64,000 nt of DNA from Prolixibacteraceae bacterium (GTDB lineage: Bacteria; Bacteroidota; Bacteroidia; Bacteroidales; Prolixibacteraceae). Position numbers and translations under genes: made by a program. Location of the stretch: positions 124,001 to 188,000 of the forward strand of contig WTWZ01000003.1 in assembly GCA_009773765.1 (NCBI GenBank), given 5' to 3'. Shown one piece after another: positions 57,063 to 62,394 of this stretch. The notes beneath the pieces are model-generated. The model had not been told where the DNA came from. It did no database searches and was given only the letters and a program-made list of their open reading frames with translations. Numbering within the stretch: the stretch's first letter is position 1; the number at the start of each line of letters is the position of its first letter.

Positions 57063-57845
57063 TTATCCTGTTGTCAATAAATTTTTAATAAAACCTGGAA
57101 CAGATTCTTCCAATTTTATTTCAGAGTCGATTGCCTTTACAAATGCACTGCCGATAATGGCTCCGTTGGCATATTTGCAGGCATTTTCAAAGGTTGCCCC
57201 GTCGGAAATTCCAAACCCGATGAGCCGCGGATTTTTCAGGTTCATCGACTGAATTCTTTCAAAATATCCGCGTTGAAAATCTTCCACTTTTTTACCTGCT
57301 CCGGTTGTTGATGACGAGGAAACCATGTAAATAAAAACACTACTTGCAGCATCAATTTGCCTGATGCGCGATTCGGTGGTTTGTGGCGTGATTAACAGGA
57401 TATTGTGCAGGTTGTGTTTTTCGAAAACCGGTTTGTAATACTGCTCAAATTCATCTAAGGGGAGGTCGGGCAAAATGGTGCCGTCGATTCCAATTTCGGC
57501 ACATTTTTCACAGAACCGTTCAACTCCAAACTGGTAAACCGGATTCAGGTAGCCCATTAAAATGAGCGGTATTTTTACGGTTTGCCTGATGTTTTTCAGT
57601 TGTTCGAAAAGGAGTTCGAGGCTCATACCATTTTTAAGCGAAATTTCGCTGCTGCGCTGAATAGTTGGCCCGTCGGCTGTGGGGTCTGAAAACGGCATCC
57701 CGATTTCGATGAGGTCAACCCCGTTTATTTCAAGCTGCTGAATAATTTCCACAGTGTCGTTCAGGTTCGGGAATCCTGCGGTAAAATACACCGAAAGTAT
57801 GTTTTCCTTTTTCGATTCGAATAAACTATTGATTCTGTTTTTCAT
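57063..57845 (-). CDS. trpA: Tryptophan synthase alpha subunit
   Basis: From ATG 57845 (MKNRINSLF) the protein is 260 residues. Catalytic Glu and Asp lie in LIEIGMPFSDPTADGP; phosphate-binding loops are GFGISDG and GAIIGSAFVKAI. It cleaves indole-3-glycerol phosphate and passes indole to TrpB. A frame starting 7 codons upstream uses an ATG that belongs to a palindromic repeat (CGAAATGACA), so the shorter start is preferred. It is the last gene of the operon. Confidence 0.96.
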   Translation of the reverse strand: MKNRINSLFESKKENILSVYFTAGFPNLNDTVEIIQQLEINGVDLIEIGMPFSDPTADGPTIQRSSEISLKNGMSLELLFEQLKNIRQTVKIPLILMGYLNPVYQFGVERFCEKCAEIGIDGTILPDLPLDEFEQYYKPVFEKHNLHNILLITPQTTESRIRQIDAASSVFIYMVSSSSTTGAGKKVEDFQRGYFERIQSMNLKNPRLIGFGISDGATFENACKYANGAIIGSAFVKAIDSEIKLEESVPGFIKNLLTTG

Positions 57846-57860
57846 GTTGTCTTTTTTTAT

Positions 57861-57949
57861 TGTCATTTCGACGACGTAGGAGGAGAAATCTGTTTCACAA
57901 AGGTAGAGATTTCTTCCCGATTACTCTGGATTCCTCCTTCGAATTGACA
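57861..57949. repeat. Short palindromic element (family B), trpB-trpA gap
   Basis: The 89 bp element has ends TGTCATTTCGA and TCGAATTGACA (one mismatch) and inner arms GGAGAAATCTGT and GTAGAGATTTCTTCC. It lies 15 bases upstream of the trpA ATG. Confidence 0.8.
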
Positions 57950-58000
57950 GTTTTGATGTTTCTTTTACTCAATACTAAAATTTCACTACTAACTACTTTT

Positions 58001-59182
58001 TCAATACCCAAAATATTCCAGATACGTTTCCATGTCTTTATTACCACTGCCCGAGAGATTGATAACATTCACATCACCGGGGTTCATTTTTATTTTATCG
58101 AGTGCTGCCAATGCATGTGCTGATTCCAGCGCAGGAATGATGCCTTCTTTTTGAGTTAGAAAAAGTGCAGCATAAAGCACTTCTTCATCGGTGGCGGCAA
58201 GGTATTTTGCCCGACCGGATTTAAACAAATGGGCGTGCAATGGTCCGATTCCCGGATAATCCAATCCTGCTGAAATGGAGTAGGGTTCGGTAATCTGTCC
58301 GTCGGTGTTTTGCATGAGCATGGTTTTAGCAGCGTGTAAAATTCCGGGGGAACCCACTGTTAAAGTTGCGGCGGTTTCGCTGGTATCAACGCCTTTTCCG
58401 GCGGCTTCAACACCAATCAGTTCAACCTGTTCGTCATCCAGAAAATGATAAAAAGCCCCGGCTGCGTTACTTCCGCCGCCAACACACGCCAACACGCGGG
58501 CCGGGAACTCGCTTCCGGTTTGCTCTTTTAACTGCCATTTTATTTCTTCACTGATAACCGACTGAAACCTGGCAACCATGTCGGGATAAGGATGCGGCCC
58601 CACAACCGAACCGATGATATAATGTGTGTCTTCAGGATTGTTGATCCAGTCGCGCATTGCCTCGTTGGTGGCGTCTTTCAGGGTTTTGTTACCGCTGTGG
58701 ACAGGAACTACTTCGGCGCCCAGCATTTTCATTTTCTTTACATTGGGCGACTGCCTGGCAACATCGAGCGCTCCCATATAAACTACACATTTAATGTTTT
58801 TCAGGGCGCAAACAGTAGCAGTCGCAACACCGTGCTGACCGGCCCCTGTTTCGGCAATGACGCGGGTTTTGCCCAGTTTTTGTGCCAATAAAATCTGTCC
58901 GACAGTGTTATTCAGTTTGTGCGAGCCGGTGTGGTTCAGGTCTTCGCGTTTCAAATAAATTTTCGAACCGTAATGTTCTGATAAACGGCTGGCAAAGTAC
59001 AGCGGCGATGGCCGGCCAACATAGTCTTTCAGCAAATGGTCGAACTCGTTTTTAAATTCTTCCGATTCAATGATTTTTAAATAGCGGTGTTTCAGCTCGT
59101 CGATGTTGGTGTACATCATTTCAGGAATCCATGCCCCGCCAAACTCGCCGTAATATCCTTTTTCGTTAACGATGTATTTCAT
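58001..59182 (-). CDS. trpB: Tryptophan synthase beta subunit
   Basis: The 393-residue PLP enzyme converts indole and serine to tryptophan. The cofactor lysine is in NHTGSHKLNN, the phosphate loop is CVGGGSNAAG, and AETGAGQHGVATA forms the carboxylate loop. The N-terminal GEFGGAWIPEMM marks TrpB1. It sits between trpF and trpA. Confidence 0.98.
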   Translation of the reverse strand: MKYIVNEKGYYGEFGGAWIPEMMYTNIDELKHRYLKIIESEEFKNEFDHLLKDYVGRPSPLYFASRLSEHYGSKIYLKREDLNHTGSHKLNNTVGQILLAQKLGKTRVIAETGAGQHGVATATVCALKNIKCVVYMGALDVARQSPNVKKMKMLGAEVVPVHSGNKTLKDATNEAMRDWINNPEDTHYIIGSVVGPHPYPDMVARFQSVISEEIKWQLKEQTGSEFPARVLACVGGGSNAAGAFYHFLDDEQVELIGVEAAGKGVDTSETAATLTVGSPGILHAAKTMLMQNTDGQITEPYSISAGLDYPGIGPLHAHLFKSGRAKYLAATDEEVLYAALFLTQKEGIIPALESAHALAALDKIKMNPGDVNVINLSGSGNKDMETYLEYFGY

Positions 59183-59206
59183 GCGTTTCTTATTTTTCTA
59201 TGAGTT

Positions 59207-59249
59207 CTATGTGCCTATGTGGTAAATCTTTAACCACATAGACACATAG
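59207..59249. repeat. Inverted repeat CTATGTG...CACATAG (family D)
   Basis: Left arm CTATGTGCCTATGTGGT and right arm ACCACATAGACACATAG pair with one mismatch around nine bases. It abuts the trpF stop codon in the trpF-trpB gap. Confidence 0.8.
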
Positions 59250-59879
59250 TTATTTCATTTTAATTTCAGCAATAAATTTCTTCAGTTTCTCCATATTTTT
59301 CAGTCCCGGTTCGTCTTCAAAATCACTATTTAAGTCAACTCCGGTAAGTTTTGGATGTTTAATTTCCAATATGCTATTTACATCGCCTGGGCCAATTCCT
59401 CCGCTTAGAAAAAATGGAATATGCCCGTCATATTTATCAAGCATTGCCCAGTTGAATTTTTGGCCCGATCCACCATGATTTTCTGTTTTCGTATCGAACA
59501 GAAAGTAGTTTGCCACTTTTTCGTATTGCAAAGTGGATTCAAAATTGAAGTTCTCATCAACACTAAAAGCTTTAATAATTTTCAATCCCTGCCTTTTGAG
59601 CAACTGGCAGGTTTTCGGATTTTCTTTGCCGTGCAGTTGAACCCATTCAAAACCAAGGTTTTTTGACAGGGCTAAAATTTCAAACGCATTTCCATCGACA
59701 AAAACACCCACTTTGGGTTTTTCGGAACTGAAAAGTCCGGGCTCGGGAGTTACTCCAACAAAACGTTTTGAAGGAGCATAGAAAATATACCCGAGAAAAT
59801 CGACATCCAGTTTTTCAACCTCCCTCCGGTTTTCGGCGAATTTCATCCCGCAGACTTTTATTTTGAGTTGTCGTTTCAT
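59250..59879 (-). CDS. trpF: Phosphoribosylanthranilate isomerase
   Basis: Starting at ATG 59879 (MKRQLKIKVCGMKF) the protein is 209 residues. The catalytic Cys is in IKVCGM and the general acid Asp in GVDLNSDFE; phosphate loops are FLSGGIG. The longer frame from 59924 adds codons that translate a palindromic repeat and is not conserved, so the shorter start is chosen. Confidence 0.95.
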   Translation of the reverse strand: MKRQLKIKVCGMKFAENRREVEKLDVDFLGYIFYAPSKRFVGVTPEPGLFSSEKPKVGVFVDGNAFEILALSKNLGFEWVQLHGKENPKTCQLLKRQGLKIIKAFSVDENFNFESTLQYEKVANYFLFDTKTENHGGSGQKFNWAMLDKYDGHIPFFLSGGIGPGDVNSILEIKHPKLTGVDLNSDFEDEPGLKNMEKLKKFIAEIKMK

Positions 59880-59905
59880 GAATTTAAGATTCTTTGGTAA
59901 ACATG

Positions 59906-59954
59906 CTTCGACTACGCTCAGCATGACGGTGTGTCACCCAGAGCGTAGTCGAAG
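59906..59954. repeat. Inverted repeat CTTCGACTACGCTC...GAGCGTAGTCGAAG (family C)
   Basis: Fourteen-base perfect arms flank about 21 bases (AGCATGACGG...CACCC). The element lies in the 86-base trpC-trpF gap. Confidence 0.85.
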
Positions 59955-59965
59955 GGTGAGAAGAT

Positions 59966-60760
59966 TTACAATTCATTTTTTAGTTCTTCAATCAATTTAC
60001 AGCAAGCTTCCCCAGGATTTTCAGTTTTCATAAACGTTTCGCCAATCAGAAATCCTTTGAAACCATTTTCACGCAGATAATGAATGGTTTTTGCGGTGTC
60101 AAGTCCGCTTTCCGAAATCTTTACAAATTTACCGGGAATAAGTTTCGACAAGCGTACCGAAGTTTCAATATCCATGGTAAAAGATTTAAGGTCGCGATTG
60201 TTAACACCAACAATATCAACAAAATCGTTTACTTTTTCCAGTTCTTCGGCATTGTGAACTTCCATTAAAACATCCATTCCAAGGATTTTTGCTTGTTTGG
60301 CCAAAACTTCGGCCTGTTCTTTTTCGAGGCAGGCAGCAATCAACAGAACTACATCGGCTCCGTGTGCCTTTGCTTCAAAAATCTGGTAAGTGTCAATCAT
60401 AAAATCTTTCCGCAAAATGGGAATTTCAGGATTGGTTTCACGCGCTTTCACCAGGTTTTCCAATGTTCCGCCAAAATATTCATATTCGGTTAAGACAGAA
60501 ATACCTGCAACACCGGCATTTGTATAACCTTTGGTTACATCTTCCACTTTCACCTTAATATTGATTTCTCCCTTTGAAGGCGATCTTTGTTTGAATTCGG
60601 CAATAACTCCAGAGGAACCATCTTTTAACAAACTGGTTTTTAACGAATTGCATGGTCTTGAAAAGAGAGGATATTTTTCAAGTTGTTCAATGCTGATCAG
60701 GTTTTTCTGACTGGCAACTTCCGTTTTTTTTGTTTCTATTATTTTATCGAGTATGTTCAT
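59966..60760 (-). CDS. trpC: Indole-3-glycerol-phosphate synthase
   Basis: The 264-residue barrel enzyme has the catalytic lysine in VIAEFKQRSPSKG, the LRKDFMID loop, GVNNRDL, and SESGLDTAKTI. It closes the indole ring. It is not fused to trpF, which follows after a repeat. Confidence 0.97.
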   Translation of the reverse strand: MNILDKIIETKKTEVASQKNLISIEQLEKYPLFSRPCNSLKTSLLKDGSSGVIAEFKQRSPSKGEINIKVKVEDVTKGYTNAGVAGISVLTEYEYFGGTLENLVKARETNPEIPILRKDFMIDTYQIFEAKAHGADVVLLIAACLEKEQAEVLAKQAKILGMDVLMEVHNAEELEKVNDFVDIVGVNNRDLKSFTMDIETSVRLSKLIPGKFVKISESGLDTAKTIHYLRENGFKGFLIGETFMKTENPGEACCKLIEELKNEL

Positions 60761-60773
60761 TTTTTTAGTTTTT

Positions 60774-60866
60774 TGTCATTTCGATGAGGAACGAGGAGAA
60801 ATCTGTCGCTTGTCGTCGTTATTTCAATGTTGCAGATTTCTCAGTCGTTCTTCCTTCGAAATGACA
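60774..60866. repeat. Short palindromic element (family B), upstream of trpC
   Basis: The 93 bp element has perfect terminal inverted repeats TGTCATTTCGA / TCGAAATGACA and inner arms GAGGAGAAATCTGTC and GCAGATTTCTC. It is 12 bases from the GIY-YIG-containing element. Confidence 0.85.
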
Positions 60867-60878
60867 GCTTGGATTGAT

Positions 60879-61285
60879 TGTCATTTCGACGACGCAGGAG
60901 GAGAAATCTGTAACTACAATGCTTCGTACACCACTTTGTTTAGAAATTTCCAATCGGCATTAAATTCATTAATCAAATTTTCCTTTTTCTCTCTTCTCCA
61001 TTTTTTCAATTCCTTTTCCCTTGCAATAGCATCGTCAATGTTTTGAAAATGTTCGTAATAAATCAAAAAGTGGCAATTATATTTTTTTGTAAATCCAGGT
61101 AATAATCCATTTTCATGTTCATAAGTCCTTCGCTGTAAATCGTTTGTAACACCAATGTAAAGAACAGTTTTATTCTTGTTAGTTAGAATGTAAACGAAGT
61201 AATTATGGTCTCTCATTTTTCTTTTCTGTTATATTTTTCAATTTTCGCCGAGAGATTTCTCAATCGTTCCTTCTTCGAAATGACA
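60879..61285. mobile_element. 407 bp palindrome-ended element carrying a GIY-YIG gene
   Basis: The ends TGTCATTTCGA (60879) and TCGAAATGACA (to 61285) and inner arms GGAGGAGAAATCTGT (60896-60910) and GAGATTTCTC (61252-61261) match the short family-B elements. In place of their roughly 40-base centre it holds the GIY-YIG nuclease gene, whose TAG stop lies 3 bases from the left inner arm. Linkers of exactly 12 bases (GCTTGGATTGAT and GCTTTGTTGGAT) separate it from the short elements on both sides. It has the look of an autonomous member of a repeat family. Confidence 0.65.
60914..61216 (-). CDS. Stand-alone GIY-YIG nuclease domain protein
   Basis: The 100-residue protein has the GIY-YIG signature as YFVYIL (7-11) and LYIGVT (19-24), a conserved Arg pair at 29-30 (LQRRTYEH) and the metal-binding Glu in AREKELKKW. 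These are the features of the small URI/UPF0213 nuclease group. It sits between trpD and trpC, in operon orientation, but has no link to tryptophan. It is enclosed by palindromic arms of a multicopy repeat, so it may mobilise or process that repeat. Catalytic competence is suggested by conserved residues only. Confidence 0.9.
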   Translation of the reverse strand: MRDHNYFVYILTNKNKTVLYIGVTNDLQRRTYEHENGLLPGFTKKYNCHFLIYYEHFQNIDDAIAREKELKKWRREKKENLINEFNADWKFLNKVVYEAL

Positions 61286-61297
61286 GCTTTGTTGGAT

Positions 61298-61397
61298 TGT
61301 CATTTCGACGATAGGAGAAATCTGTTGTTTCAATTGGCATTTTTCATCGTTGTTTTAAAGTTCCGGATTTCTCGGTCGTGCCTCCCTCGAAATGACA
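61298..61397. repeat. Short palindromic element (family B), at trpD 3' end
   Basis: The 100 bp element has perfect ends TGTCATTTCGA / TCGAAATGACA and inner arms ATAGGAGAAATCTGT and CCGGATTTCTC. The trpD TAG stop begins one base beyond its right end. Confidence 0.85.
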
Positions 61398-61398
61398 G

Positions 61399-62394
61399 CT
61401 ACATTGTTACTTTTTCCAGCTTCTCCAGAGCCTTTCCACTTTTCAGGGATTCTGCAGCAATTTCAATACATTCAGGCAATTCTTTTTCAGCAAAATAAAC
61501 ATTTAAACCGATGGCTGTATTGGCAATTACCGCATTGTTTTGTTCTTCAGTTCCATTTCCTTCCAAAATATCAACAAATATTTTTGCCGCTTCTTCCACT
61601 GTATTTCCTCCAAATAATTTTTCGGGCTGAATTGTCTTCATTCCAAAATCCAGCGGGGAAAGTACATATTCCTTGTGTTTTGTTGCGATTCGCGTTTCTG
61701 CAGTCAGCGAAATTTCATCGTACCCGTCGAGGCTGTTTACAATAGCGTAATTCACGTTCAGGGTTTCATACACGTTTTTGTAGTGGTTGAAATTTTCAAG
61801 GTTATTCACGCCAAGTACCTGATATTTTGGCGACGACGGATTTATCATCGGGCCAAGAATATTGAAAAAAGTCTGCACTTTCAGGGCACGACGAACCGGT
61901 GCAATGTGTTTCATGGCTGGGTGGAAAAGCGGGGCGTGCAAAAAGCAAAAATTTCCTTTTTCGAGGTCGTTTTTCAGTTTATAAATGTCGTTACTGAATT
62001 TGTATCCAAGCAATTCGAGCAAATTGGATGAGCCGCTGGTGGAGGAAACGGCGTAGTTTCCGTGTTTTGTAACATTCACACCCGCACCGGCAATTACAAA
62101 ACAAGCCAGTGTTGAGATGTTAAACGTGTTTTTTCCATCGCCGCCGGTTCCAACAACATCAATGGCATTGTATTCCGAAAGGTCGGTTCTCAGGCTGAGT
62201 TCGTCCATGGCATCGCGGAATCCGGCAAGTTCTTCCGAAGTGATTGGGCGCATCTTGAAAACGGTGAGGAAGGAGGCAAATTCGGCTTCACTGTGCAATC
62301 CTTTTCCAACTGCAAGAAGACTTTCTTTTGACTTTTCGCGGGAGAGAGTGTTGCCGGTGAAGAGATATTCTAAAATTTCTTTCATTCTAATCAA
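61399..62394 (-). CDS. trpD: Anthranilate phosphoribosyltransferase
   Basis: The 331-residue enzyme has the PRPP motif DVVGTGGDGKNTFNIST, the KHGNYAVSSTSGSSNLLE loop and the conserved FNILGPMINPSSP. It transfers phosphoribose to anthranilate. It is not fused to trpG. Its stop codon directly borders a family-B palindromic element. Confidence 0.97.
   Translation of the reverse strand: MIRMKEILEYLFTGNTLSREKSKESLLAVGKGLHSEAEFASFLTVFKMRPITSEELAGFRDAMDELSLRTDLSEYNAIDVVGTGGDGKNTFNISTLACFVIAGAGVNVTKHGNYAVSSTSGSSNLLELLGYKFSNDIYKLKNDLEKGNFCFLHAPLFHPAMKHIAPVRRALKVQTFFNILGPMINPSSPKYQVLGVNNLENFNHYKNVYETLNVNYAIVNSLDGYDEISLTAETRIATKHKEYVLSPLDFGMKTIQPEKLFGGNTVEEAAKIFVDILEGNGTEEQNNAVIANTAIGLNVYFAEKELPECIEIAAESLKSGKALEKLEKVTM

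Follow-up and report, generated by a model that had tools for sequence, protein, structure and literature searches.

A predicted GIY-YIG nuclease gene inside bacterial palindromic repeats, a candidate partner enzyme for a repeat class said to lack one

Introduction

Small hairpin-forming repeats (REPs) are scattered through many bacterial genomes, and in REP/RAYT systems (REPtrons, REPINs) a single Y1 transposase gene is flanked by inverted palindromes whose gene-less dimers are dispersed in the genome, with enzyme clade and repeat type matching one another. RAYTs are held to spread the GTAG REPs in this way (Di Nocera et al. 2013, PMC3733652). The same survey describes a second large superfamily, the CGTC-tagged REPs, including Neisseria dRS3 and Rickettsia RPE-4/RPE-6, with an unpaired CGTC, TGTC or CCTC tag at one end, an 8-9 bp stem beginning with complementary AT, a 4-5 nt loop, a CCA tail and a predominance of head-to-head dimers. 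These were stated to 'apparently lack a dedicated transposase', none of the RAYT or other IS200 transposase genes in species with CGTC repeats being flanked by CGTC units, and it was suggested that their REPtrons had died out.

GIY-YIG domains, on the other hand, are found in free-standing homing endonuclease genes of phages and fungal mitochondria, which are small, patchily distributed and apparently mobile, and in UPF0213/YhbQ-type proteins. In the open literature searched, which did not extend to subscription papers or preprints so that a prior report elsewhere is not excluded, no title or abstract start linked GIY-YIG genes to REPs, or UPF0213 proteins to palindromes, although some papers hold both words in passing (fungal mitogenomes, a Moraxella survey). 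PMC12306157 (2025) has no mention of a transposase, RAYT or nuclease, and PMC1564403, on GIY-YIG phylogenomics, has no hit for palindrom, UPF0213 or COG2827.

Here we analyse a 64,000-nucleotide stretch of a Prolixibacteraceae bacterium (assembly GCA_009773765.1, contig WTWZ01000003.1, positions 124,001 to 188,000), referred to as the window. A preliminary description, made from the sequence alone, had noted three palindromic elements in a row in the trp operon, of which only the middle one carries a stand-alone GIY-YIG gene, and a fourth, gene-less element 2.8 kb away, and had proposed an autonomous element with non-autonomous derivatives in the manner of REP/RAYT pairs, the mobilising role of the nuclease being inferred. 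Below, genomes are numbered G (the host is G000), contigs C and loci L.

Results

Four directed palindromic elements in the trp operon

The preliminary observation proved correct in all its parts. The elements are located at 60774-60866 (93 bp), 60879-61285 (407 bp) and 61298-61397 (100 bp, directly after the trpD stop codon), separated by two 12-base linkers at 60867-60878 and 61286-61297, whereas the fourth, at 57861-57949, measures 89 bp and has one mismatch in one arm. The triple array occupies the trpD-trpC junction and the fourth copy the trpB-trpA junction of an operon on the minus strand, with gene names taken from our reading of the open reading frames and from synteny. The 11-base end, with up to one mismatch, has 12 matches in the window against 1.87 expected, and 0 of 100 shuffles reach 12. 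All four elements have the same polarity: on the minus strand, and hence in the direction of the operon, an A arm (TGTCA[TA]TTCGA followed by a purine-rich stretch) comes first and a B arm (ending in CGTCGAAATGACA or CATCGAAATGACA) last, so that each is a directed unit rather than a simple palindrome. In the 407-bp element the A arm runs inwards from 61285 and the B arm ends at 60879, with the 100-aa GIY-YIG gene at 60914-61216 (minus strand) in between. Its product matches the Pfam GIY-YIG profile PF01541 at 1.2e-16, with no second domain recognised and no intron or intein seen, and UPF0213 proteins (PDB 1zg2 and 1ywl) are the only solved structures matched by profile, at 2e-8 and 2e-6.

Folding showed the 93-base copy to be unusually stable (z -7.2), followed by the fourth copy (z -3.6) and the 100-base copy (z -3.0), while the gene-holding 407-base copy is not (z 0.3). 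A search of 57700-61600 against Rfam returned a single chance-level match (E 0.94), outside the elements. Compared with the CGTC-class REPs, all four elements have the TGTC tag, and the stem begins with AT (ATTTC...GAAAT) in the halves, except for the left half of 57861-57949 on the minus strand, which has AATTC. However, the halves possess a 5-bp stem and a loop of roughly 10-20 nt, with the longer pairing being between the two halves, and continue in CTG, CTC or CCG after GAAAT rather than in a CCA tail. The units are therefore CGTC-like and not strict members. A further gene-less inverted repeat, of the CTGAGC type (CTTCGACTACGCTCAGCATGAC...), lies at the trpC-trpF junction of the window (59906-59954).

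Distribution in the host genome

The host genome has 34 exact ends against 1 for the reversed control. We read 32 of these, in 20 further stretches and the window, leaving out two on contigs C3 and C4. They form 14 gene-less elements whose second arm has at most 1 mismatch (reversed control 0 of 32 ends), or 18 if up to 3 mismatches are allowed (reversed control 7 of 32 ends, rendering the looser four weaker one by one), and one element with the gene, whereas 6 ends have no recognisable second arm. Paired, head-to-head elements hence predominate. Nine of the 18 (L312, L313, L315, L316, L318, L319, L323, L324 and L325) belong to one composite repeat, in which a TTTCGA palindrome whose right end departs by one to three bases is embedded in a longer conserved stretch.

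A profile search recovered six PF01541 matches in this genome. One (L001, G000:C59:8130-11348) lies among a different palindrome family (GTCATCCTGAGCGTAGTCGAAGG, GTCATCCTGAGCGTAGTCGAAGGATG), and its clade in relatives has the same kind of arms. Another, on C18, and a remnant on C115 lie beside tRNA genes. The latter arrangement points to a second GIY-YIG system, with genes directly beside tRNA genes (Val, Met, Asp, Arg, Pro, Phe), in several genomes in tandem arrays with periods of about 337-470 bp (L125, G029:C1:4090392-4093589; L121, L132, L135; L202/L206/L214 in G034; G009:C4:3732268-3734708; L003, L005). In the array that was read (L125), each unit is flanked by partial copies of the tRNA, which ARAGORN reads as tRNAs of odd anticodon, resembling genes that restore the end of the target they enter.

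Inverted repeats flank related genes and follow protein clades

A close protein is encoded in 70 of 149 genomes, the host included. We took 30 loci and 100 further regions from this search, leaving out five matches at contig ends (G115:C252, G016:C53, G005:C30, G136:C453, G021:C480) and the rows from G026:C121 on (E 1.3e-9 and worse), unless they lay in a stretch already included. Of the 144 GIY genes found in these loci, 119 were used (score 60 or more, at most one stop, both flanks at least 60 nt). Inverted repeats (IR) of score 11 or more within 150 nt on both sides are present for 72 of 119, against 5 of 119 with the downstream flank reversed but not complemented and 12 of 445 at offset positions; at score 12 the counts are 60, 0 and 5. 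The remaining 47 do not reach 11. These controls do not support a mere clustering of small genes and repeats in intergenic space. A lack of arms around genes of the window's own clade would have spoken against the proposal, but was not seen: of 24 rows at 65% identity or more to the window protein, 21 reach 11, and all 24 have a TCATTTCGA/TCGAAATGA unit in at least one flank. Of 23 loci of this clade read for arm type, 19 have both arms, with the gene A-first in 11, B-first in 5 and between two arms of the same type in 3. Two members counted in this clade (L025, L027) have mixed TCTCGA or TTCCGA arms.

The arms differ between protein clades, being of TTTCGA, TTGCGA, TTCCC, TTCCGA, CTGAAC, CTGAGC and CCCGG types. 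On a tree of 109 proteins (those without a stop, with L091 and L102 omitted as too short) the motif labels need 17 changes against 66 when shuffled, with 0 of 200 shuffles as low. The tree has few columns and many unresolved forks, and near-copies cluster by kinship, so this shows clustering and not exact history. No recognised motif is present for 32 of the 109, and whole clades, including tRNA-linked ones, lack such arms. The gene is under purifying selection where intact, with a median dN/dS of 0.08 over 38 unsaturated pairs of 17 sequences (largest 0.26), and the Arg and Glu taken to be catalytic (R29 and E67 of the first aligned sequence) are invariant in 12 diverse members.

The pattern extends to other phyla. 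The best 80 of 575 relatives in named genomes, selected by similarity to a TTGCGA-clade protein so that this motif is favoured, reach IR 11 in 53 of 80 cases (controls 3 of 80 and 9 of 296) and IR 12 in 48 (1 of 80 and 2 of 296), while 27 do not reach 11. A GTCAT-type unit is found in a flank for 70 of 80 (75 of 296 offset windows), and an exact inverted pair for 43 of 80 (1 of 296), in Bacteroidota, Bacillota, Pseudomonadota, Chloroflexota, Planctomycetota, Campylobacterota and others, although many are metagenome bins and single placements may be wrong. We also read 12 of 32 plasmid-collection records, some of which, judged by size, are chromosomes; 9 reach IR 11, whereas Rhizobium L51/94, Aeromonas and Sinorhizobium K101 do not. 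GIY genes here lie between or next to CGTC- or CCTC-tagged REPs in N. gonorrhoeae, S. meliloti, A. lipoferum, N. aromaticivorans, Sphingobium, Rhizobium CIAT894 and Shinella, the repeats being CGTC-tagged in N. gonorrhoeae, A. lipoferum, Sphingobium, Rhizobium CIAT894 and Shinella. The gonococcal unit is dRS3-like, a likeness that rests on its sequence and on the features of dRS3, as well as on the statement that dRS3 is CGTC-1 (PMC3733652). In Azospirillum lipoferum (L329, NC_016623.1) the gene and its REPs lie between sufB and sufC, just as the window's copy is inside the trp operon, and in Planktothrix agardhii (L335, NZ_LR882964.1) a GIY-YIG gene with GTCATTCTGAG-type repeats lies between an MmeI-type restriction gene and a DISARM helicase gene.

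Repeat abundance and Y1 transposase genes

Next, repeat abundance was compared in 90 genomes of the host's family, with clade A set at 65% identity (G031 by a remnant) and clade B by its place on the tree. TGTCATTTCGA has a median count of 37 in the 22 genomes with a clade A gene and 4 in the 68 without (p 2e-7), while clade B makes no difference (p 0.78). Conversely, GTCATTGCGAG has a median of 12.5 in the 16 genomes with clade B and 1 in the 74 without (p 2e-6), while clade A makes no difference (p 0.54). Kinship is not corrected for in these values, and within the genus p is only 0.015 (A) and 0.003 (B). The repeats are therefore not equally abundant overall without the cognate genes, but exceptions exist: many TTTCGA ends and no clade A gene are found in G007 (123), G001 (73), G016 (65), G012 (42), G034 (40), G009 (33), G035 (29), G083 (24) and G022 (22) within the family and in G139 (26) outside it, and many TTGCGA ends and no clade B gene in G007 (28), G012 (26) and G034 (18). 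Apart from G007, which is considered below, the clade A exceptions stand, some being incomplete bins. A count of near matches, intended as a measure of decay, gave a high reversed control.

Y1 transposase genes occur in all eight genomes tested, with 54 matches. Of 30 loci analysed, 28 were usable (the ends of L365 and L368 were misplaced), and none of these has a TCATTTCGA unit in its 150-nt flanks; the one GTCAT-type hit is in L365. Inverted repeats of other sequence reach score 12 in 16 of the 30.

Occupied and empty states at orthologous sites

Exact palindrome ends are carried by 5 of 29 readable trpD-trpC junctions (30 loci; of the 24 others 13 are 20 bases or less), by 13 of 30 trpC-trpF junctions and by 5 of 30 trpB-trpA junctions. 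Gene-bearing cases are the window (trpD-trpC), G011 (trpC-trpF), and G032 (L196) and G033 (L026) at trpB-trpA, where the window has its fourth, gene-less element, with a decayed gene in G031 at trpC-trpF. Some junctions scored as lacking ends hold degenerate arms (L146, L150), and some scored positive hold only one end (for example L142, L185). In G012 the trpC-trpF junction (L140) measures 790 bases. In Sphingobium, for which four of seven full-length records were included, the site between fnrL and a response regulator gene has palindrome-GIY-palindrome in four of the plasmids read (one with a one-base deletion in the gene), one palindrome made of the outer halves in two, and none in two. 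No target-site duplication or clean single insertion was visible in the Sphingobium and S. meliloti alignments, though flanks are diverged and the S. meliloti comparison holds no empty site, since M103, for which the sequence search had suggested a gap, also has the gene.

INTERMEDIATE

G007 has 123 ends and no clade A gene. Its C18 element (L391) has the arms and the two ends of the gene, with residues 1-10 running straight into 76-100, and precedes the same open reading frame (QKEFRQIFRNKTMLP) that follows the intact gene of L015. Most of its repeats that were read (among L377-L388 and L395) are nearly identical 78-79-bp palindromes with nearly the same flanking bases, and thus amplified within a larger repeat. 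Together with the deleted gene, this means that G007 is not a clean counter-example to the abundance pattern. L391 is the only clear deletion intermediate found; two long arm pairs in G139 and G137 (L397, L398) gave no convincing GIY remnant.

Discussion

The interpretation offered in the preliminary description is partly supported by our analysis: the idea of an autonomous palindrome with a GIY-YIG gene and gene-less derivatives is well supported by the flanking tests, clade-motif matching, copy-number association, occupied and empty sites and an internal-deletion intermediate, whereas mobilisation of the repeats by the nuclease is still inference. We favour, with moderate confidence, the view that the 407-bp unit is an autonomous mobile palindrome, with two inverted REP-like units (GTCAT...ATGAC) around the gene of a small GIY-YIG nuclease specific for that palindrome sequence, and that the 89-100-bp units are non-autonomous derivatives that arose by internal deletion and keep both arms in their original polarity. 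In this view the nuclease most likely binds the cognate palindrome, as duplex or as extruded hairpin, and nicks or cuts it, with copies spreading to intergenic sites when the break is repaired or replicated, and different clades would pair with different palindrome families (TTTCGA, TTGCGA, TTCCC, CTGAAC, CTGAGC and CCCGG types), including CGTC-class REPs of Alphaproteobacteria and dRS3 of Neisseria. The sequences show the linkage, the matching of clade and motif, the copy-number association, presence and absence at orthologous sites and one intermediate between gene and deleted gene, while binding, cutting, the route of copying, mobilisation by the nuclease and the origin of the window's own gene-less units by deletion are inferred, in the absence of biochemical data. 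The arrangement resembles a REPtron and a MITE with an autonomous parent, sharing terminal inverted repeats with a gene-bearing copy, but the enzyme is a GIY-YIG protein and not a Y1 transposase. As compared to free-standing homing endonuclease genes, the gene lies inside a repeat family rather than in an allele of one host gene.

The main alternative, which we consider possible but less likely, is a homing parasite of REPs, where the nuclease does not spread the palindromes but cuts uninterrupted ones and is copied into them, so that each palindrome is a homing site, whereas gene-less palindromes spread by other means. The single palindrome at the Sphingobium site, for which the direction of change is not resolved, and the differing gene orientations relative to the arms fit this as well, the GIY-YIG domain is shared with homing enzymes (a weak argument), and clade-motif matching and copy-number association fit equally; the latter could also mean that the gene invades genomes already rich in palindromes. 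However, the host genome has one gene copy against 14 to 18 gene-less ones, while a homing gene would be expected to fill many palindromes, the G007 intermediate runs from gene to gene-less, and no other enzyme has been tied to the TTTCGA palindromes. Spread by Y1 (RAYT/IS200-type) transposases in trans, with a secondary GIY-YIG link, appears very unlikely: such genes are present in all eight genomes tested and RAYTs are held to act on GTAG REPs, but the Y1 loci have their own, different repeats, in line with the survey of CGTC species (PMC3733652). Equally doubtful is a host-serving role, with a structure-specific enzyme processing hairpins and kept beside the palindromes because both are tolerated in the same intergenic places. 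Purifying selection and the UPF0213 matches are compatible with this, yet the patchy distribution, variable sites, decay and deletion, and sharing of gene and motif across phyla look like mobile DNA, and the offset controls speak against mere intergenic clustering.

A more far-reaching possibility, which we regard as tentative and slightly less likely than not, is that GIY-YIG nucleases of about 100 aa are the sole enzymes of a new class of palindrome-ended mobile elements found in many phyla, each clade with its own palindrome code, and the missing mobiliser of the CGTC superfamily (dRS3, RPE-4/6 and the alphaproteobacterial REPs). For one of the two large REP superfamilies, described as lacking a dedicated enzyme, the present data offer a specific candidate, with a recognisable match between enzyme clade and repeat sequence, and make the question testable by a simple cleavage assay. 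It would also show that enzymes other than Y1 transposases can drive families of bacterial palindromes, account for common unexplained repeats (GTCATTGCGAG, GTCATTTCGA and GTCATTCCCGC types), and provide a natural series of small nucleases with different palindrome specificities.
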